Source of the DNA: Candidatus Saccharimonadota bacterium
GTDB lineage: Bacteria > Patescibacteriota > Saccharimonadia > Saccharimonadales > UBA4665
Assembly: GCA_028286245.1 (NCBI GenBank)
Contig: JAQBRY010000002.1
Span: 392,779 to 456,778 of the forward strand
Direction: 5' to 3'
Length of the DNA stretch: 64,000 bases
Shown here: piece by piece, positions 3,685-15,764 of the stretch
Layout of the letters: the number at the start of each line of letters is the position of its first letter
How positions within the stretch are numbered: position 1 is the stretch's first letter
The notes under the pieces: generated by a model
The model's database searches: none
Seen by the model: the letters and a program-made list of their open reading frames with translations, nothing else
What the model was told of the DNA's origin: nothing
Position numbers and translations under genes: made by a program

Positions 3685-6236
3685 GAACTAAAGCGCTCAA
3701 ACTCACGCTGGAGGCTTGTGGCCAGCTCACCGGCCTCTGTTAATTGCTGCTTAGTTTGCTCAACAATTTCACGGGGAGCATTCCGTACGTAGTTTTCGTT
3801 GCTGAGCCTGCTCTCAAGCTGCGCTATGACCGCTTTTTGGCGTTCCTGCTTGGCAGCTATCTCTTTAAGGTAGGACTGCGCAGTGCTCTGGTCAATATCG
3901 AGCCAGCAGCGAACACTTGTGGTGGTTAGATAGAGGCCGGTGCCATCTTCTACCTCTGTTACGGCTTGTAATCGAGCCATACGTTTAATGGTCTCAGCAT
4001 TGTCTTTAATGAGTTGAACGTCGCTGTAATACAGGGTCGAACCAGAAACTTTCAGCGCGTTTAGGATAAACCGGCTTTCAGTCACAATGTTCTGGACTTC
4101 GCCAAAGGCGGCAACTTGCTTAGGGTCGCTGGCCAGTGGTTTAGCGAGCTGCCTGACTGCTAACAGACTATCCCCTTCCCATGCCAAGGTCTGCCAGATA
4201 GTTTCGGTCAGGAACGGCGCAAATGGATGCGCCAGGAGGAGGATTGACTCCAGGAGGTGTGCTAACAGCGGCTTATTGGGCGCAGCCTTACTGGCCTCTA
4301 CGTACCAATCGGCCACATCATCCCACACAAAGTGATAGATAGTGTCATAGGCTTCACTAAAGCGATATTCGTCCAGATTCTGAATAACTTCTTCTTGAGT
4401 TCGTTGTAATTTACTCAATATCCAATGATCGGCCGCCGCCGAGGCTACCGGTTTAGAGCGTTCGGGATTGTCGCCCAGGATATCCTCGATGTAGCGAGCA
4501 ACATTCCATAGCTTGTTGCAAAAGTTACGGGCTTCTTCGACGCGGCGCTGGTCATAACCCCGGTTAACAGCCGGTGCCCGGCCACTAATAATACCCATGC
4601 GTAGCGCATCGGAACCGTACTGATCAATCACCGGTATGGGGTCAACCACGTTGCCAATCGATTTGCTCATCTTGGAGCCATCCTCTGCCATAACGTAGCC
4701 GTGAACGTACACTTCCTTAAACGGAATCTCCCCTGTCACGTACTGGCCGAGCATAATCATCCGGCTCACCCACGGATAGAGGATCTCGCCGCCCGTTTCC
4801 ATGAGGCTTAACGGATAGAACTGCTTAAAGTCATCCGACTCCGGACCACCAAGTGTGGCATAGGGCCAGGAGCCGCTGCTAAACCAGGTATCGAACACGT
4901 CCGGATCGCGCCGATAGTGCTTGTCGCCGATGGTTATAAACTCTTCCCCTACCCTGTCGTCATATATCCAATCATCCGGTTCGTCCACGTTTTGAAAGGC
5001 CGGAATCGGGATTCCCCAGGCAATTTGCCGGCTGATATTCCAATCGTGGAGCCCTTCTAGGTAGCGAATCAGCTGCTCTTTCTTGCTGTCGGGGTAAAAG
5101 TGTATCGATCCTGCGCGCAAAGTGTCGATAGCTTTGGCCGCTAGCGGCTGCATGTTTACGAACCACTGCTCGCGGAGCAGCGGTTGAATAATGGTGCCGC
5201 ACTTATAACAGTGGCCAACGCTGTGCGGCCGGTCCTCGGTTTTTACCAAGTACCCCTGCTCTTCTAGGTCAGCTACAACTTTTTGTCGCCCAGCTTCTAC
5301 GGTTAGTCCCTGATAAGCTTCAGCAACCTCGTGGCTGAGCAGGCCTTCGGTAGTAATAACAGTTATCATCGGTAGGTCGTGGCGCTTACCCACCTCAAAG
5401 TCGTTCGGATCGTGCGCCGGCGTGATTTTGACGGCGCCGGTACCAAACTGCACATCAACAAAATCGTCACCAATGATTGGCAGTTCCCGATTAGTCAGCG
5501 GCAGTTTTACGGTTTTTCCAATCAGTGCGCTGTAGCGCTCATCTTGAGGGTTTACCGCAACAGCCGTATCCCCAAGTAGCGTTTCGGGGCGCGTGGTGGC
5601 CACGGTAATATCACCGCTGCCATCAACCAACGGGTACCGAATATACCATAGTTTGCCGGGCTCGTCCTTAAACGCCACTTCAATATCAGCAAAGCCGGTG
5701 CCGTGAAACGTACAGAAGTTCACGAGTCGCTCACCCCTGTAAACTAAGCTTTCGTCCCACATCTTTTTAAAGGTAGCGTAGGCGCGAGTAACCACTGGAG
5801 CATCAAGTGTATAGGTAAACTTTGACCAGTCGCAGCTAATGCCCATCCGGCGGATCTGTGCCTCAAAATTAACCTTATTTTCGGCCACAAAGTCCCAAAT
5901 ATCCCTGTAAAGCTCTTCACGAGAAAAGTCAAAGCGGCTCTTCCCTTCCTTGGCCAGCCGTTTCTCGTAAACGGATTGCGTTTCGAAACCAGCGTGATCA
6001 GCCCCCGGCAGTAGGAGCACCGAGTCACCCTTTAAGCGGTGATATCGAGCCGAAATATCCTCTAGAACAGCGGTAAGCTCATAGCCAATGTGGAGGTTGG
6101 CATTGGCGTTAGGTGGTGGCATGACAATAGAGTAGGGTGTGCCACTCTTGGCGGGGCGAAAGGCTTCACTACGCTCCCAGAGGGCGTAGATGTCATTTTC
6201 GTAATCACTTGGCTCATAAACTTTTGGTAATTTCAT
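3681..6236 (-). CDS. valS: Valyl-tRNA synthetase
   Basis: This 851-residue class I synthetase charges tRNA-Val. The HIGH-type motif is HIGY at residues 49-52, preceded by the expected proline-rich PPPNANANL. The KMSKS motif is at 522-526. The editing domain lies between them, with the hallmark VATTRPETLLGDTAVAV. An anticodon-binding helical domain and a C-terminal coiled-coil of about 65 residues follow, as is normal for ValRS. The start is supported by TATGAT ending eight bases upstream. The gene converges on the XRE-HAD gene and shares the quartet CTAA at 3681-3684, which gives stops in both directions. Confidence 0.97.
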   Translation of the reverse strand: MKLPKVYEPSDYENDIYALWERSEAFRPAKSGTPYSIVMPPPNANANLHIGYELTAVLEDISARYHRLKGDSVLLLPGADHAGFETQSVYEKRLAKEGKSRFDFSREELYRDIWDFVAENKVNFEAQIRRMGISCDWSKFTYTLDAPVVTRAYATFKKMWDESLVYRGERLVNFCTFHGTGFADIEVAFKDEPGKLWYIRYPLVDGSGDITVATTRPETLLGDTAVAVNPQDERYSALIGKTVKLPLTNRELPIIGDDFVDVQFGTGAVKITPAHDPNDFEVGKRHDLPMITVITTEGLLSHEVAEAYQGLTVEAGRQKVVADLEEQGYLVKTEDRPHSVGHCYKCGTIIQPLLREQWFVNMQPLAAKAIDTLRAGSIHFYPDSKKEQLIRYLEGLHDWNISRQIAWGIPIPAFQNVDEPDDWIYDDRVGEEFITIGDKHYRRDPDVFDTWFSSGSWPYATLGGPESDDFKQFYPLSLMETGGEILYPWVSRMIMLGQYVTGEIPFKEVYVHGYVMAEDGSKMSKSIGNVVDPIPVIDQYGSDALRMGIISGRAPAVNRGYDQRRVEEARNFCNKLWNVARYIEDILGDNPERSKPVASAAADHWILSKLQRTQEEVIQNLDEYRFSEAYDTIYHFVWDDVADWYVEASKAAPNKPLLAHLLESILLLAHPFAPFLTETIWQTLAWEGDSLLAVRQLAKPLASDPKQVAAFGEVQNIVTESRFILNALKVSGSTLYYSDVQLIKDNAETIKRMARLQAVTEVEDGTGLYLTTTSVRCWLDIDQSTAQSYLKEIAAKQERQKAVIAQLESRLSNENYVRNAPREIVEQTKQQLTEAGELATSLQREFERFSS

Positions 6237-9592: not shown

Positions 9593-10948
9593 ATGAATCC
9601 GCGCCGCCTTGTTAAAAAGATTGTGCCAAAGGGCTTGTTCCCGGCCATTGAGCCCTACGGCCATCTGGCTGAATCCATAGTGTTTAATACACTGAGCGGT
9701 TTTCCGTCTAGGGGCATGAAGGTAATTGGCGTCACGGGCACTAACGGCAAGACGACTACCAGCTTTCTGATACACCGCATGTTGCACGAGGCTGGCTATA
9801 AAGTTGGCCTTATGAGCACCGTGGCCTACGGCGTGGGCGATGATATTCGGCCGCAGGTGGAGCATATGACCAGCGTGGATGTGCCGACGCTCATGAAACG
9901 TATGAAGTTTATGAAGCAGCAGGGAGTGGAATGGTTGGTACTAGAGACGACCAGTCACGCCTTGGCGCAGCACCGCATGTGGGGTGTGCCCTACAGCGTA
10001 GCTGTGATGACTAACATTACCCATGAGCACCTCGATTATCACAAGACGTTTGAGCGCTATCGCGACGCCAAACGGATGATGTTTAAGCAAGCCAACCGTA
10101 ACCGTAAGGGGCTGCAGATTGGCATTGTGAACGCCGAAGACCCCAGCGCCGAGCTGTTTGCAGGCGACGTCCAGAACCCCGTGCTATACGGCGTTAAAAA
10201 AGGCGACCTAAAAGCCGAAAACGTCCAGTTGACCCCTGATGGGGTAGATTATGATGTGCGCGTCGGCAGCGAGCAGCTGCACATTACCTGCCATTTGCCG
10301 GGGAGCTTTAACGTATATAACTCTCTGGCGGCGGTGGGGGTTGGCCAGGCGCTTGGCCTGACGGGCCAGCAAATAGAGCAGGGAATTGCTGCGCTTGAGG
10401 GCGTAGAGGGCCGAATGACGCGCATTGATGAAGGCCAGGATTTTAGTGTGATTGTGGACTATGCGCACACGCCGGACAGCTTTGAGAAGCTGTTTAAGGA
10501 CCTGCGGCCAGTGGTCAAGGGCAAGCTGATTGTGATGTTTGGCTCGGCCGGTCGCCGTGATGAGACTAAGCGGGCAGTGCAGGGTGCACTGGCCGGTGAA
10601 TACGCCGACGAAGTAATTATTACCGAAGAGGACGACCGCGACATTGATGGCCAGGAAATTATGGAACAGATCGCTGCCGGCGCTGCCAGTAAGGGCAAAA
10701 TCCGCGATCAGGACCTGTTCCTGGTACACGATCGCACCGAAGCGATTAATTTTACGCTTAAGCGAGCGAGCAAGGGTGATACCGTGCTGCTGCTTGGCAA
10801 GGGTCATGAGAAGGATATTTTACGCAACGGCCCCAAGGCCACCGAGCTCCGCCACCTGCAGCAAGACGATCACAATCCGGACAGAGTGGTCGAGTATCCT
10901 TGGGACGAAATCGGCACCGCCCACGCTGCCCTCAAGACACTGGTGTAG
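9593..10948 (+). CDS. Mur ligase family protein, MurE-like, lacking the N-terminal UDP-binding domain
   Basis: The product is 451 residues. The ATP-binding loop GVTGTNGKTTT lies at about 46-56. The MurE-like central block includes LETTSHAL and TNITHEHLDYH, and the C-terminal domain has VDYAHTPDSFEK and LLGKGHE. These fit UDP-MurNAc-tripeptide synthetases, which add the third residue of the peptidoglycan stem. Only about 40 residues precede the P-loop, whereas canonical MurE has about 100 forming the UDP-sugar domain, so domain 1 is missing. The meso-DAP selectivity motif DNPR is also absent; the matching region reads TEEDDRDIDGQE. The substrate is therefore uncertain, and it may act on a different acceptor. 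Confidence 0.8.
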   Translation: MNPRRLVKKIVPKGLFPAIEPYGHLAESIVFNTLSGFPSRGMKVIGVTGTNGKTTTSFLIHRMLHEAGYKVGLMSTVAYGVGDDIRPQVEHMTSVDVPTLMKRMKFMKQQGVEWLVLETTSHALAQHRMWGVPYSVAVMTNITHEHLDYHKTFERYRDAKRMMFKQANRNRKGLQIGIVNAEDPSAELFAGDVQNPVLYGVKKGDLKAENVQLTPDGVDYDVRVGSEQLHITCHLPGSFNVYNSLAAVGVGQALGLTGQQIEQGIAALEGVEGRMTRIDEGQDFSVIVDYAHTPDSFEKLFKDLRPVVKGKLIVMFGSAGRRDETKRAVQGALAGEYADEVIITEEDDRDIDGQEIMEQIAAGAASKGKIRDQDLFLVHDRTEAINFTLKRASKGDTVLLLGKGHEKDILRNGPKATELRHLQQDDHNPDRVVEYPWDEIGTAHAALKTLV

Positions 10949-10972
10949 TATCTCTACAGCCCCACTTTAATA

Positions 10973-11007
10973 TTGACATAAGCACAATAAAGTGCTAAGC
11001 TTATGAT
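10973..11007 (+). promoter_or_regulatory. Promoter TTGACA-N17-TAAGCT with AGCAC/GTGCT inverted repeat
   Basis: TTGACA (10973-10978), a 17-base spacer and an extended -10 TGC-TAAGCT (hexamer 10996-11001). TATGAT at 11002-11007 is an alternative with an overlong spacer. The repeat AGCAC-N6-GTGCT (10981-10996) sits between the boxes, as at 7459 and 53446. Confidence 0.5.
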
Positions 11008-11035
11008 GTAATTTAAAACAAAAAGCTAAAAAGCT

Positions 11036-11836
11036 ATGCCAAACATATCAAACTCGCAGCTTGCGACCGAATTTATCCCACCCATGCCACGCGCTGCCGT
11101 CGAAGAGACGGCCCAATTTGCGGTTAGCCCGGAAAGGGAAGCGCAGCTCAAGCGTTTGCTCGACGGCCCTTACGGCCCGGAGCACAATTACGCCAACTAT
11201 GAGTACGCCTTAGACAGCGGACTGCTCGATGTATTTGATTATGATGCCGAAACCGGCCGGGACGGCATTCAGCATGTGCTTGGCGGCGAGGTCATGAAAG
11301 GCGAAGATGGCGCTCGCATACCGGAAGGTTTCCATCATGAGCCGTCAGCAGCTTTTGGCATAACAGAGCCGAGTAGTACCTATGTTGATCGTGAGCACAT
11401 TAGCTCACTGAACTCCAAAGGTCGAGCCGATTTAAGAGAGACACCATTTGAGCCCTACAAAGCTAAAACAGTCGTTGCCGGCTTAACAAAGATGACAGTG
11501 CAGATTAACCTTGATAGCGGCGAAACAGAGACGGTACGGGCTAAGAACGGTATGTTCCCAAAAGAATATGATGGCCTTGCGGTTTTACAGGCAGTTCGAT
11601 TGGCTCGAGACCGAAGGGATGTCACTAAAGATGTTGTTAACCCAAGTGGCAACCTGGTTGCTGAGAGCACGGTGCCGATGATAGATGGTACTTCTTTGAT
11701 GCGTATTCGTTTGGTCATGGATGCACAGACGCAAAAAGTTCGATCCGCCTTCCCGATTGTAAAGGTGGGAGGAATTATGAAGTTATCGGGCGAGGCTATT
11801 GACGCTACGTTGCAATCGACCCAAAAAGTACGATAA
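11036..11836 (+). CDS. Bacterial EndoU-like nuclease (putative toxin)
   Basis: The product is 266 residues. The order of motifs matches the bacterial EndoU fold found at the C-termini of contact-dependent toxins: QHVLGGE with His80, EGFHHEP with His100/His101, an alkaline strand YKAKTVVAGL at 141-150, the GMFPKEYDGLAVLQAV block at 172-187 (family: TFFP followed by an aromatic and a helix), and a final SAFP at 237-240 (family: TAYP). EndoU enzymes cleave RNA, often tRNA, with two catalytic histidines. There is no signal peptide or large carrier, so export is unexplained. It is followed after 43 bases by a small acidic gene with its own promoter, as expected for an immunity partner (inference). 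No clear Shine-Dalgarno is seen; the 28-base leader is A-rich. Confidence 0.6.
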   Translation: MPNISNSQLATEFIPPMPRAAVEETAQFAVSPEREAQLKRLLDGPYGPEHNYANYEYALDSGLLDVFDYDAETGRDGIQHVLGGEVMKGEDGARIPEGFHHEPSAAFGITEPSSTYVDREHISSLNSKGRADLRETPFEPYKAKTVVAGLTKMTVQINLDSGETETVRAKNGMFPKEYDGLAVLQAVRLARDRRDVTKDVVNPSGNLVAESTVPMIDGTSLMRIRLVMDAQTQKVRSAFPIVKVGGIMKLSGEAIDATLQSTQKVR

Positions 11837-11840
11837 TACC

Positions 11841-11869
11841 TTGCCCATATTGTTGTAAGATGGTATAGT
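11841..11869 (+). promoter_or_regulatory. Promoter TTGCCC-N17-TATAGT for the putative immunity gene
   Basis: TTGCCC (11841-11846), a 17-base spacer and TATAGT (11864-11869). Predicted transcription starts within a few bases of ATG 11880. This promoter is independent of the EndoU gene. Confidence 0.5.
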
Positions 11870-11879
11870 TATTATATCA

Positions 11880-12164
11880 ATGACTGAATCTCTAGATGGG
11901 AACACGCTAGCCGAGATGCTTTTTGCTGCATTATCGAAACGAGTAGGCACTGCCACAGTGCGTGCAATTATTGCTCGTGGAGAGGCGGAACAATTAGCTG
12001 GTCGCCAAGGTATAACTGTGAGCAACCCGGAAGCAGGTTGGAGTATGGCGGTGGCAGAGAGTGGGCTCAGCTTTCAATTTGGCGAGTGGGGCCCGGTTCT
12101 AGTTGAGGTTACTGACGCGGCTACAATCGTCAATAGTATTGACGCTGCCCCAAGTAGTAACTAA
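11880..12164 (+). CDS. Small acidic protein, candidate immunity partner of the EndoU-like nuclease
   Basis: The product is 94 residues with about 11 acidic and 5 basic side chains. It has a helical N-terminal half (LAEMLFAALSKRVGTATVRA) and a beta-rich C-terminal half (WSMAVAESGLSFQFGEWGPV). I do not recognise a family. The immunity proposal rests only on position, 43 bases after the EndoU gene on the same strand, on acidity and on the separate promoter. EndoU immunity proteins are highly diverse, so lack of recognition is not evidence against it. It ends three bases before the convergent arginase stop. Confidence 0.55.
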   Translation: MTESLDGNTLAEMLFAALSKRVGTATVRAIIARGEAEQLAGRQGITVSNPEAGWSMAVAESGLSFQFGEWGPVLVEVTDAATIVNSIDAAPSSN

Positions 12165-12167
12165 TAA

Positions 12168-13118
12168 CTAGGCGCTGGCTTGGTTGTGGGCCATGTAGTT
12201 GCTGTACCAGCTGTAGTCTTTGCCGAGGAACTTAGCAATGAGCTCTATGCCGAGCTCGGCAGTTTTATTTTGTTCGTCCTGTAGAGGGTTGTATTCGACT
12301 ACGTCGATACCGATGACGTTGCAGTGCTCGCCGATGTACTGGGCGAGGGTGGCGATTTCGCGGTAGGTGAGGCCTTTGGCGTTGGGCATGCCGGCACCGG
12401 GAGCGTAGAGGCGGTCAATGCTGTCTAGATCAAGGCTGATCCAAATGTTGGGTACCCGGGCAGCCAGCTCATCAATAAGTTTAATAAGCGGCCCCATACC
12501 GCTGATAAGCAGGTCAAACAGAGTAAAGACCTGCAAGTTTTCACGGGCAATGAGGTCGAGTTCGGCTTGGTCCCAATCGCTGCCGCCGATGTGCAGTAAA
12601 TTTTCTTTGGCCAGCTTGGTTTGCTCGCCGTACACGTTTTTAAGCGCCGGGGTGCCGTAGCCCATGACGCTGGCGAGGTGCATACCGTGAATATTGCCGC
12701 TGAGAGTGGTTTCGTCGGTGTTCATGTCGCCGTGGGCGTCAAAGTAGATGAGGCCGATATCGCCGCCTACGGCGGCGCTGGCACCGGCCATGGCACCGAG
12801 GTTGATTGAATGATCACCACCTAGAACGACGACTTTTTGACCGGCTTGTAGGGCTTGATCGGTTTTGCCAGCTAGAGCTTGGTTGACTCTGACGATTTCG
12901 TCGAGGTAGTGCAGGCGCGGATCCCCAATTTCTAGATCGGTGCGGTCGCCCACGGCGATGTTACCCCCATCGGTCACGGTAAAACCGGCCTGCGCGAGCT
13001 TGTCGGTGATTTTTTGATAACGAAAGGCGTCCGGGCCAATATCGACGCCTAAATTCTTGGCTCCTAGGTCGAGGGGCACGCCGATAATAGTGAGGGGTGT
13101 TGAGCTGGCAGAAGACAT
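12168..13118 (-). CDS. Arginase/ureohydrolase family enzyme
   Basis: The product is 316 residues. The binuclear manganese signature is complete: GGDHS, then DAHGDMN, a conserved NIHGMH, and SLDLDSID followed by APGAGMP. GLTYRE after this favours arginase over agmatinase. Arginases split arginine to ornithine and urea. The C-terminus (about 25 residues past the core) is slightly extended. TATACT ends six bases before ATG 13118, so the mRNA should be leaderless. No other arginine or polyamine gene is nearby, so its pathway cannot be read from context; formiminoglutamase or guanidinobutyrase activity remains possible. Confidence 0.88.
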   Translation of the reverse strand: MSSASSTPLTIIGVPLDLGAKNLGVDIGPDAFRYQKITDKLAQAGFTVTDGGNIAVGDRTDLEIGDPRLHYLDEIVRVNQALAGKTDQALQAGQKVVVLGGDHSINLGAMAGASAAVGGDIGLIYFDAHGDMNTDETTLSGNIHGMHLASVMGYGTPALKNVYGEQTKLAKENLLHIGGSDWDQAELDLIARENLQVFTLFDLLISGMGPLIKLIDELAARVPNIWISLDLDSIDRLYAPGAGMPNAKGLTYREIATLAQYIGEHCNVIGIDVVEYNPLQDEQNKTAELGIELIAKFLGKDYSWYSNYMAHNQASA

Positions 13119-13124
13119 GGGCTT

Positions 13125-13130
13125 AGTATA
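13125..13130 (-). promoter_or_regulatory. -10 box TATACT for the arginase gene
   Basis: Minus-strand TATACT ending 6 bases before ATG 13118; no Shine-Dalgarno site. Confidence 0.55.
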
Positions 13131-13185
13131 CCAAAAATAGTTTTACGCTGTGCCATCCTAATTAAGCACTTTGTCAAATTTTTAA

Positions 13186-13214
13186 TTGAAATATATTTCA
13201 TAATAGTATATAAT
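13186..13214 (+). promoter_or_regulatory. Promoter TTGAAA-N17-TATAAT with a 14-base perfect palindrome
   Basis: TTGAAA (13186-13191), exactly 17 bases, then TATAAT (13209-13214). The perfect palindrome TGAAATATATTTCA (13187-13200) overlaps the -35 box and spacer, an ideal position for a repressor. It drives the small-protein/PRTase-like/NADAR unit. Confidence 0.6.
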
Positions 13215-13226
13215 CAAAATACAATT

Positions 13227-13496
13227 ATGACAATGATACACGAGGGTGGACCCCCAATATCTCCAGAACCGTCAGAGCCTAACCTAGGAGACCTAGGTGG
13301 CTCTGAGGCTTTACGTCTAGCCCTCGAAGAAGGCATAGCACGTATTGCGGTTGAAAAAGAGCTTTTACTTGAGCAAAAGCCCCAGCCGTTAACTTCTGTT
13401 GCCGATCGGCTGAGCTGGCTAGAGAAAGTTCATGCTGCTCATAGTACACTGGGATTTTATTATGAAATGCTCGATGGCCTTGACCAACCCTCCTAA
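13227..13496 (+). CDS. Small protein of unknown function, first gene of the NADAR unit
   Basis: The product is 89 residues: a Pro/Gly-rich acidic start, then two probable helices (SEALRLALEEGIARIAVEKE and ADRLSWLEKVHAAHSTLGF). I recognise no family. ATG 13227 lies 12 bases after the TATAAT box; an in-frame ATG two codons later (13233) is equally possible. The PRTase-like gene begins 51 bases after its stop on the same strand, so they are probably co-transcribed. It may be an adaptor, inhibitor or regulator of the downstream enzymes; that is inference only. Confidence 0.6.
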   Translation: MTMIHEGGPPISPEPSEPNLGDLGGSEALRLALEEGIARIAVEKELLLEQKPQPLTSVADRLSWLEKVHAAHSTLGFYYEMLDGLDQPS

Positions 13497-13547
13497 AAAG
13501 AGTTTAATAAGGAAATCTTTTACTAAATAAAAAGTTGTGACCCCACT

Positions 13548-14894
13548 ATGGCTCAAACCTCACGTGAAGCTGACCTAGAAATCATACACGACGACCTGCG
13601 TGTTATATACGAGGGCCAACCGTCAGAACAGGCGCCCATAGACGCCAGCTTGGCGGCTCATCTGGGCCATGTAAGTTCGCAAGTAGTAGACTTAGTAGCA
13701 TATGAGCAAGACAAAGCTGCCGATGAGCTTGCCAAAGAGCTTGCCGATGCTGAAGTGCTTAGCCGCATTGGCGATAGAAAGTTAGCCGAGATTGACGCGC
13801 TGCATGCCGCAGTTGTAGCTAAACAAACCAAGCAAAGAGAAGCGCGAGCCGGCATTGTGGAAGCTAGCACTCAGGTAGATGGTGTTGAGGTCGTACGTCG
13901 CCTAAAAGCTCATGGAGTTGTTAAAATAGCGCCCACCTTAAAAGAGCAGGTTAAAGATCCGACTCGCCTTGCGACGTTTGCGTACCAGCGAAAATGTCGT
14001 CCGGGTGAAGCGCCAGTGCTGGAGCACATGACCGAAGCCGAGGGCCTAAAAGAACTCCACGGTTTTTTACAGGCTGCCATCGAAAAGGGTATTACTACTC
14101 CTCCATCGGCCGTGCGTGAGTTGGAACGTGTTCGCCAGGCCAGGGGCATGCTGGAGGGGCTGACATTTATTGGTAGTCCGGAGTTCCAGGAAGCCGCCGC
14201 CGGCTTAGCAGCCTACTGGAAAGGATATCTTGGCAGCGACCCGCGTAATGTGCTGTGCCTGACAGCTGATATTGGCAAATTGGATCGATATGCAAAACTC
14301 GGTATCCGTAAAAGCGACGATAAGCTCCGCGATTTTATTCTTAGTAGTTTTAGCGACGAGGAACTGCAACGCTATTCCGGCCGGATTGTAGCCAGCCCTG
14401 ACGATGTGTCGGTTGAGCCGCAATTTGCTAAGGTGGTGATTCTTGATGACTGGTCAATGAGCGGACGGGCTTTGCGGGATACGTATAAGAGGTTGAGGCA
14501 TACGACGTCCTTGCAAGAATTTGTGGACGCGCGTAAGGTGGAGATTAACTTTTTAGTTGCTTCTAGGGAGAGGATTAGAAAAGGTATGGTTGTCCGAAGT
14601 GCCAGGAGTGGCGAGCCGGAAACGCGTCTGCCAGTCAGAGCATACTACCGATCGCACAAGGTATACACTGCATCTGAGGCCCAGGAAGGTCATGTGACGG
14701 GCCGGCATTCAGTGGTCAACATCGACTTTCAGGACCCCGTCGAGCTTATGGCACGTAGCCTCTTGGGCGATAAACGGGCGGTCCCCGCCTTGGCTTCGGT
14801 GGTGGCTGAGAACGCAAGACCCGGGGTGGTAATTGCGCCTGATAGCTTAACAAGAACCTCCTTGCGTAAACAGCGAAGAACCAGGAAGAAGTAG
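13548..14894 (+). CDS. Phosphoribosyltransferase-like protein with coiled-coil N-terminus
   Basis: The product is 448 residues. Residues 50-105 are rich in Ala, Glu, Lys and Asp and look like a coiled coil. The middle (150-230) is helical. Residues 234-345 resemble a type I phosphoribosyltransferase fold, with the PRPP-loop-like motif KVVILDDWSMSGRAL at 295-309, comparable to VVIVDDxxxTGxTL, where the usual Thr-Gly is Ser-Gly. The C-terminus ends in a basic tail (RKQRRTRKK) that could bind nucleic acid. The substrate is unknown. The NADAR gene starts three bases after its stop, which suggests that both act on one nucleotide or ADP-ribose-related substrate. No clear Shine-Dalgarno is seen before ATG 13548. 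Confidence 0.65.
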   Translation: MAQTSREADLEIIHDDLRVIYEGQPSEQAPIDASLAAHLGHVSSQVVDLVAYEQDKAADELAKELADAEVLSRIGDRKLAEIDALHAAVVAKQTKQREARAGIVEASTQVDGVEVVRRLKAHGVVKIAPTLKEQVKDPTRLATFAYQRKCRPGEAPVLEHMTEAEGLKELHGFLQAAIEKGITTPPSAVRELERVRQARGMLEGLTFIGSPEFQEAAAGLAAYWKGYLGSDPRNVLCLTADIGKLDRYAKLGIRKSDDKLRDFILSSFSDEELQRYSGRIVASPDDVSVEPQFAKVVILDDWSMSGRALRDTYKRLRHTTSLQEFVDARKVEINFLVASRERIRKGMVVRSARSGEPETRLPVRAYYRSHKVYTASEAQEGHVTGRHSVVNIDFQDPVELMARSLLGDKRAVPALASVVAENARPGVVIAPDSLTRTSLRKQRRTRKK

Positions 14895-14897
14895 TAC

Positions 14898-15386
14898 GTG
14901 GCAATCGAGACATTCCAGGGTGACACGCGCTTTTTGAGTAGTATGTTTATGGTGCATAACTGGCTTATGTCGCGCGAGGGTATCCTGGTGCCAGCGAGCG
15001 AAAATTTATATCAAGCTGACAAGTTTCTGGACGATGACCACCGTGAGTATGTACTACAGGCGAGGCATGGCTTGGCGAGTAAACGCCGAGCCGGTGAGTT
15101 AGTGGAACGAGGGGTGCCAATGCGCCCTGACTGGGATGAGGTAAAGGTTTCTCATATGGCCCGCTTTACGCTACATAAATTTGTAGCCAATCCTGATATC
15201 GCTGGCCGGCTTATGGGCACCTATGATCAAGAATTGATTGAAGGGAACACCTGGGGCGATAATTTTTGGGGCGTCTGTCCGCCGGGAAGTCGTAATGGCC
15301 AGAACTGGCTGGGACGTATCCTTGTGGATGTTAGAGCGCGGTTAATGGAAGGCAACGTGCCGCCCATTAGTGAGCTTATTATATAA
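14898..15386 (+). CDS. NADAR-domain (YbiA-like) protein
   Basis: The product is 162 residues, starting with GTG at 14898, three bases after the PRTase-like stop. The NADAR pattern is clear: FLSSMF near the N-terminus, ENLYQADKF at 35-43 (family: EhyyQA.K), W79, TLHKF at 91-95, LIEGNTWGDNFWG at 113-125, and NWLGRILVDVR at 136-146. Family members act as N-glycosidases on riboflavin intermediates (YbiA) or remove ADP-ribose from modified guanine in DNA (DarG-type NADAR antitoxins). No DarT-like ADP-ribosyltransferase is visible beside it. The partner here is a PRTase-like protein, an unusual pairing. Confidence 0.88.
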   Translation: MAIETFQGDTRFLSSMFMVHNWLMSREGILVPASENLYQADKFLDDDHREYVLQARHGLASKRRAGELVERGVPMRPDWDEVKVSHMARFTLHKFVANPDIAGRLMGTYDQELIEGNTWGDNFWGVCPPGSRNGQNWLGRILVDVRARLMEGNVPPISELII

Positions 15387-15396
15387 TCCCGGTGCC

Positions 15397-15426
15397 TTGA
15401 CAGTGATTTGTCGGCTCCGCTATGAT
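15397..15426 (+). promoter_or_regulatory. groES promoter TTGACA-N18-TATGAT
   Basis: TTGACA at 15397-15402 and TATGAT at 15421-15426, 18 bases apart, immediately upstream of a CIRCE operator. Confidence 0.8.
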
Positions 15427-15438
15427 GAGAGCTGATAG

Positions 15439-15465
15439 TTAGCACTCTCGACCTTATAGTGCTAA
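15439..15465 (+). promoter_or_regulatory. CIRCE operator (HrcA binding site)
   Basis: TTAGCACTC, nine bases, then TAGTGCTAA: the classic CIRCE inverted repeat with one mismatch (first base of the right arm). It lies just downstream of the predicted transcription start of groES, where HrcA represses heat-shock operons. hrcA itself is not in this window. Confidence 0.92.
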
Positions 15466-15497
15466 CTCCAACTAATCTACACGAGGAGAATTACTAT

Positions 15498-15764
15498 ATG
15501 AGCACCCCATTGCAGCCGCTTGGCGACTATATTGTTGCCCAGGCAGAAGAAGCCGCTACTAAGACAGCCAGCGGTCTATATATTCCGGAGAAATCTGCCG
15601 AAAAACCTAAGACATCAAAAGTTGTGGCTGTTGGTTCTGACGCCAAGCATGTCAAAGTTGGTGATCGAATTATCTATAAAACTTACAGCAACACAGAGGT
15701 AAAAGTAGACGGCGTTGACTATATTCTTGTAAAAGAAGAAGACATTCTAGCGACAATTAAGTAG
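15498..15764 (+). CDS. groS: Co-chaperonin GroES
   Basis: The product is 88 residues. GroES caps the GroEL ring during protein folding. LQPLGDYIVAQAEEA at the start, the mobile loop TASGLYIPE, and the C-terminal VKEEDILATIK are characteristic. The start is ATG 15498, ten bases after Shine-Dalgarno GAGGAG (15483-15488); an upstream in-frame ATG at 15459 lies inside the CIRCE element and is rejected. It is followed by groL after 32 bases in the same operon, under HrcA/CIRCE control. Confidence 0.95.
   Translation: MSTPLQPLGDYIVAQAEEAATKTASGLYIPEKSAEKPKTSKVVAVGSDAKHVKVGDRIIYKTYSNTEVKVDGVDYILVKEEDILATIK

Follow-up and report, generated by a model that had tools for sequence, protein, structure and literature searches.

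A divergent PRTase–NADAR gene pair in a Saccharibacterial genome as a candidate DS-32-like conflict module

Introduction

NADAR proteins form a family of enzymes that cleave N-glycosidic bonds, namely those of ribosylamine phosphates and of ADP-ribosyl-guanine. Saccharibacteria, in turn, are tiny, ultrasmall bacteria that depend on a host, and the genome considered here, that of a Candidatus Saccharimonadota bacterium (NCBI GenBank assembly GCA_028286245.1), has the small size usual for the group (1.13 Mb). In one 64,000-nucleotide stretch of its contig JAQBRY010000002.1 (positions 392,779 to 456,778 of the forward strand; hereafter the window, whose own numbering is used throughout), a gene for a NADAR protein of 162 amino acids (aa) follows almost directly on a gene for a phosphoribosyltransferase-like (PRTase-like) protein of 448 aa.

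The closest named counterpart of this pair is DS-32, for which NCBIfam holds two families, NF053875, “phosphoribosyltransferase-like anti-phage protein” (DS32_1), and NF053876, “NADAR family anti-phage protein” (DS32_2). The DS naming appears to be that of DefensePredictor (Science 2026, PMC13092281). The main text of that report does not use the name DS-32, but it does mention NADAR domains, and a PRTase is among the entries in its legend of validated systems (PMC13092281). No published mechanism for DS-32 was found in the part of the literature that was available. A preliminary description of the window knew of no account of this exact pairing, a statement that DS-32 overturns: given DS-32 and the pairs recovered below, the PRTase–NADAR pairing itself is already known. 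The new part is a very divergent form of it in another phylum.

A second point of comparison is the DarT1–NADAR operon, in which the NADAR protein is the antitoxin and not the toxin (PMC11543638). In the DarT1-linked NADAR of E. coli C7, E88 and K95 are the catalytic Glu and Lys, and K115 is required to counter DarT while being dispensable for catalysis (PMC11543638). The likeness to the window lies in a two-gene operon with a NADAR, and in a catalytic Glu/Lys pair and an antitoxin-specific Lys that E35, K42 and K62 of the window protein match by spacing; the first protein of the window pair is, however, PRTase-like and not an ADP-ribosyltransferase. RibX/YbiA shares the NADAR family, but the window protein falls below the cut-off of the riboflavin-intermediate N-glycosidase family (TIGR02464), has K62 where YbiA has Ala, and stands in an operon with a PRTase. 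Finally, the PRTases of Ter systems and polyvalent proteins are conflict-system domains that have been proposed as makers of nucleotide-like metabolites (PMC5512222). They resemble the candidate described here as PRTase domains in a conflict system and differ from it in gene context.

The PRTase-like protein and its family

The pair comprises the following genes and motifs:

13548 to 14894, + strand: gene of the 448-aa PRTase-like protein (ATG start), with a helical N-terminal region, a core, a C-terminal motif and a basic tail
14310 to 14318, + strand: KSD, codons 255 to 257, with K255 and S256 invariant in the family; in alignment with DS-32 PRTase-CE proteins it falls on their (G)xSQSE loop
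14445 to 14465, + strand: DDWSMSG, codons 300 to 306, by sequence a binding motif for phosphoribosyl pyrophosphate (PRPP) or ribose-5-phosphate
14691 to 14711, + strand: HVTGRHS, codons 382 to 388, within the family-specific C-terminal motif [IV]TGxHSSVDYxFE
14850 to 14891, + strand: basic C-terminal tail LRKQRRTRKK (TRTSLRKQRRTRKK)
14898 to 15386, + strand: gene of the 162-aa NADAR protein (GTG start), 3 bp past the PRTase-like stop codon

In type I PRTases, PRPP is bound by a motif of four hydrophobic residues, DD, three residues and [ST]G, a pattern to which VVILDDWSMSG conforms. D300, D301 and W302 are invariant in all aligned family members, and S305 and G306 nearly so. The whole protein and its core were each modelled from a two-row alignment, with a mean predicted local distance difference test (pLDDT) score of 46 and 50, respectively; within the core, the best stretches score 75–83, and the N-terminal region is modelled, at low confidence, as a long helix over residues 33–101. 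In the weak model the core (residues 205–369) matches HGPRT/PyrR, with Z 7.7 and a root-mean-square deviation of 3.5 over 120 residues to HPRT, and all 50 structural matches listed are HGPRT, PyrR or other PRTases, which also holds for the core domain alone. The fold search that the preliminary description had proposed points towards a PRTase fold, on a low-confidence model; with Z below 8, such matches are support and not proof. Foldseek with the whole-protein model gave no match at E≤0.001, and a sequence search of the PDB with the family profile gave none.

Relatives of the protein occur in 20 of the 393 genomes of the order (~5%) and, among 380 genomes sampled across the phylum, in one remote genome outside it; none was found in viral contigs, plasmids or phage records. 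Members are ~19–31% identical to the window protein. The family is patchy and fast-evolving, with members ~30% identical to one another, variable chromosomal sites and long, variable N-terminal regions. PRTase-CE (PF24390, gathering cut-off 27 bits) is matched at E≤1 by 20 of 21 members, over a region that holds the KS loop and the PRPP motif, and four exceed the cut-off (L032, 31.1 bits; L029, 30.0; L026, 29.7; L025, 28.1). The window protein leaves the profile's C-terminal part unmatched, and only one family member matches PRTase_2, weakly (0.0042). A PRTase-like core with a PRPP motif is supported for the 448-aa protein, which probably belongs to a divergent PRTase-CE subfamily of Saccharibacteria, within the same broad superfamily as the DS-32 PRTases.

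Two loci of the family have features of their own. In L031 (1873–8595, − strand), the PRTase-family domain opens a 2240-aa frame downstream of a BtpA-like gene, either as a fusion or by frame read-through, and in L044 (5549–6910, − strand) the neighbour of the PRTase-family gene has a weak Fic domain match (0.00049).

The NADAR protein

The second protein had been called a NADAR in the preliminary description, and PF08719 agrees (70.1 bits, 3.4e-19; cut-off 35.1 bits). E35, K42, K62, K94, E115, D121, W124-G125, N136 and R146 are all present, and K94, E115, W124, N136 and R146 are invariant across 37 NADARs; judged from these residues, the protein is intact, with a complete predicted active site. 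By spacing and alignment, E35 and K42 correspond to the catalytic E88 and K95 of the C7 NADAR and K62 to its K115. Lys occupies the K62 position in all six PRTase-paired NADARs (window, locus L035 and four loci of DS-32 type) and in 7 of 31 others, Tyr or Phe being the residue in most Saccharibacterial NADARs. By sequence, the closest solved structure is E. coli YbiA (PDB 2B3W; 3.7e-13); TIGR02464 reaches 56.1 bits, below its cut-off of 73.7. PADLOC gives only a weak match, of the NADAR to PDC-M42C (0.0059), and the PRTase-like protein matches no ADP-ribosyltransferase or DarT family in Pfam, NCBIfam or PADLOC. The phage family phrog_1017 scores higher against the window NADAR than the Pfam NADAR family does (102.9 versus 70.1 bits).

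Recurrence of the pair and alternative partners

The PRTase–NADAR pairing reported in the preliminary description is real and recurs. In L035 (genome G265, from another genus), a PRTase gene is followed after 13 bp by a NADAR gene, between groES and murE and inverted relative to groES. One clade unites the window NADAR with its counterparts in L035 and a third locus, L092 (support 98/91, or 95/86 once the long branch L048 is removed), and the genome with L092 (G209) carries its PRTase elsewhere, ~56 kb away. A PRTase is thus present in every one of the three genomes represented in this clade, against a base rate of 20/393 (p ~1e-4, post hoc). No PRTase-CE-like or PRPP-motif genes lie beside other Saccharibacterial NADARs. 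The L092 gene itself (G209:C1:845000-853000, ~3978–4466, + strand) sits inside an rRNA operon, after the 16S rRNA gene and three tRNA genes and before the 23S rRNA gene.

Five other loci have a different partner, a BtpA-like TIM barrel encoded after the PRTase (before it in L031):

L024, 4116 to 7024: PRTase/BtpA-like set
L025, 5204 to 8318: PRTase/BtpA-like set
L029, 2622 to 5433: PRTase/BtpA-like set
L031, 7306 to 10009: PRTase/BtpA-like set
L026, 8229 to 10134: PRTase/BtpA-like set

The barrels are 43–49% identical to the first member, match PF03437 at E 7e-5 and 3e-4, and weakly resemble hexulose-phosphate synthase and phosphoribosyl-anthranilate isomerase; a helical protein of ~240 aa is mostly encoded between or beside the PRTase and BtpA-like genes. 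With an N-glycosidase in some loci and a sugar-phosphate-type barrel in others, the partners may act on a phosphoribosyl compound or mark, and the swap suggests that phosphoribosyl chemistry is what the loci have in common.

Comparison with DS-32

The curated cut-offs for DS-32 are 250 bits (NF053875) and 240 bits (NF053876). A pair from K. pneumoniae passes both, its first protein being a full PF24390 PRTase-CE (155 bits), and PRTase-CE genes followed after 2–5 bp by NADAR genes were found in an E. coli lambdoid prophage, a Methylobacterium plasmid and a Vibrio plasmid. The gap is 1–5 bp in the four loci of DS-32 type, 3 bp in the window and 13 bp in L035. By these cut-offs the window pair is not DS-32; in architecture it is DS-32-like.

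The two share the order of a PRTase-CE-type protein and then a NADAR within a few bases, an accessory and patchy distribution, an alignable S-rich [K/Q]S[D/E] loop before a helix, an alignable LDDxxxSG, and the NADAR Lys at the K62 position. They differ in that DS32_1 relatives have ~335–345 aa and a C-terminal motif FRNCPNNTPL...WYPL, whereas the window protein has 448 aa, ITGxHSSVDYxFE and a basic tail; the DS-32 NADARs also carry a C-terminal extension of ~40 aa that the window NADAR lacks. Among the Saccharibacterial proteins, one family member weakly matches NF053875 (0.016), and the L035 NADAR reaches 67.6 bits against NF053876. Profile-profile comparison of the family with one DS-32 protein gave no match; when four DS-32 PRTases were used, the KS motif and the DD..SG motif came out in register. 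The trees neither establish nor reject a common ancestry of the DS-32 NADARs and the paired ones of the window, L035 and L092 (p-AU, from the approximately unbiased test, 0.31). The distant pair in another phylum keeps gene order and both active sites, which means that the two enzymes probably cooperate, and this leaves as conserved features the KS loop and PRPP motif of the first protein and the Glu/Lys/Lys set of the NADAR.

In its lambdoid prophage, the E. coli pair (L151, NZ_AP022482.1, 2441–4074, + strand) is flanked by the replication P gene on one side and the nin region on the other, and a related NADAR is present in 62 of 5426 E. coli genomes.

Interpretation and alternatives

Because a PRTase-like core with a PRPP motif, an intact NADAR, a recurrent pair, a patchy family at variable sites and the DS-32 gene order come together here, we hold it fairly probable, by analogy, that the pair would be a DS-32-like conflict module. 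A defence-type role, as the preliminary description had suggested, is plausible, since a named anti-phage system has the same two-gene order. Several results weigh against this interpretation. Both structure models are of low confidence, and the window protein scores only 14.1 bits (0.044) against PF24390, below the cut-off. It has no NF053875 match up to E 1, nor did a whole-genome scan find one there; the window NADAR reaches 50.5 bits (1.3e-13) against NF053876, far from 240, and the family profile matches that of the four DS-32 PRTases weakly, with a probability of 1.3% and P 0.041. The neighbours of the cassette are metabolic and chaperone genes, none of them recognised as defence. Linkage in related genomes, on which the preliminary description had staked its proposal, holds in part: an adjacent NADAR is found in only 2 of 22 family loci, and several others have a different partner. 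Overall, the PRTase and NADAR families co-occur in four genomes, which is not significant (p 0.11), and the window and L035 PRTases do not group in the poorly resolved family tree.

The whole explanation, in which 13548–14894 and 14898–15386 would form a conflict module of anti-phage or toxin-antitoxin type built like E. coli DS-32, has in our estimate about an even chance. A modification/removal couple, as in the preliminary description, stays putative, and the specific phosphoribosyl on/off chemistry is, in our estimate, clearly less likely than not. In the scheme that we infer for PRTase catalysis, its target, the toxic partner and a defence role in this organism, infection or a disturbance of the nucleotide pool would be the trigger. 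The PRTase-like protein would transfer phosphoribosyl from PRPP to a base amine, with guanine as the likeliest base, whether free or part of a nucleic acid; the NADAR would take the group off again and so keep the unprovoked module harmless. Overall, this would be a PRPP-based parallel to DarT1–NADAR, with a PRTase fold replacing the ADP-ribosyltransferase. It is tempting to extend the scheme to the PRTase-CE superfamily at large, as toxins that phosphoribosylate nucleic acids or nucleotides, with a NADAR or, in sister loci, a phosphate-binding BtpA-like barrel as the swappable remover or processor, a PRPP counterpart of the NAD-based DarT–NADAR systems that would reach from E. coli prophages to Saccharibacteria; so broad a claim is, in our judgement, improbable.

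Within the same kind of defence-type module the roles might also be the reverse, with the PRTase-like protein as a PyrR-like sensor or regulator and the NADAR as an effector that, once licensed, destroys the nucleotide pool or releases bases. PyrR binds nucleotides and PRPP. It is among the best structural matches listed, long and variable N-terminal regions like those of the family are common in sensors, and the NADAR active site is complete; most PRTase members, however, have no adjacent NADAR and hence would not be NADAR regulators alone, and the DarT1-linked NADAR is an antitoxin (PMC11543638), so that we consider such a reversal unlikely. Metabolite repair or salvage would have the NADAR break down a phosphoribosylamine that is damaged or in excess, much as RibX/YbiA acts on riboflavin intermediates, and the PRTase rejoin the freed base to PRPP. 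The TIGR02464 score, although short of its cut-off, fits this, as does the weak resemblance of the alternative BtpA-like partner to sugar-phosphate and phosphoribosyl-anthranilate enzymes, but a presence in 5% of the order's genomes, fast evolution and variable sites are unlike core salvage, and the closest named gene pair is anti-phage; this makes the proposal quite unlikely.

The two genes might instead have no functional link and be accessory neighbours brought together by chance in a cargo hotspot, the NADAR being a stand-alone shield against ADP-ribosylating toxins, and most family loci indeed lack a NADAR, just as most Saccharibacterial NADARs lack a PRTase. Chance is nevertheless hard to square with an order and adjacency kept in two genera at ~30–35% identity, where the genes lie 3 and 13 bp apart, with the same order in DS-32, and with the clade-specific co-occurrence in G209, and we regard it as very unlikely.

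The cassette, its promoter and its borders

The other features of the locus are as follows:

12168 to 13118, − strand: arginase gene (PF00491, 3.6e-58), left flank
13186 to 13214, + strand: promoter-like TTGAAA-N17-TATAAT (11/12 consensus matches; TATAAT at 13209–13214)
13187 to 13200, no strand: perfect 14-bp palindrome TGAAATATATTTCA, overlapping the −35 hexamer
13227 to 13496, + strand: 89-aa open reading frame (ORF), ATG start
15397 to 15466, + strand: groES promoter TTGACA-N18-TATGAT with a CIRCE-like (controlling inverted repeat of chaperone expression) element GTTAGCACTC-N9-TAGTGCTAAC, the right-hand border of the cassette

The three ORFs of the preliminary description (89, 448 and 162 aa), their arginase and groESL flanks, the NADAR start three bases after the PRTase gene, and the promoter with its overlapping palindrome are all where it had placed them. 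Its inferences from the minor features have fared less well. The promoter score is the region's best, level with that of the groES promoter, and the promoter lies 12 bp before the first ATG, so that the message would be nearly leaderless. The palindrome had been taken as evidence of regulation; one of at least its length arises in 4.5% of shuffles of this stretch (25% GC), the window holds ten of at least 14 bp, and none of at least 10 bp precedes the homologous L035 pair. As an operator candidate it was rejected, being at chance level in an AT-rich stretch and not kept in L035; it may still serve as one, a point that carries little weight here.

The 89-aa ORF, which ends 51 bp before the PRTase-like gene, has an in-frame codon usage like that of its neighbours (0.05 bits/codon; −0.1 to −1.0 in the other frames). 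It has no relative among 93 genomes of the family and is absent from the L035 pair. The idea of a conserved third component was rejected for this lack of relatives; the ORF is a coding-like orphan whose membership in the unit is doubtful, and it also carries little weight.

In G004, of the same genus, and in G021, the arginase start is ~100 bp from the groES promoter/CIRCE element, while the same junction spans ~2.2 kb in the window. Since the junction is empty in those genomes, 13119 to ~15396 is read as an accessory cassette, bounded on the right by groES/groEL; the promoter and CIRCE-like element at 15397 to 15466 belong to groES and not to the cassette. Cargo in the murE–groES interval (10948–15497 in the window) differs in most of 20 relatives inspected (L094–L113). 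The rpmE–rpsB interval, likewise flanked by core genes, holds differing accessory genes between genomes (L028, L030, L036, L037, L039). These intervals are two apparent integration hotspots in Saccharibacteria and, together with the gene pair, they offer a defence-type candidate and two such sites for study in ultrasmall, host-dependent bacteria.

As for groES itself (window 15397–15498), the true start is unlikely to be the GTG at 15459 given in the ORF list, which falls inside the CIRCE-like repeat; AGGAG precedes an ATG at ~15498.

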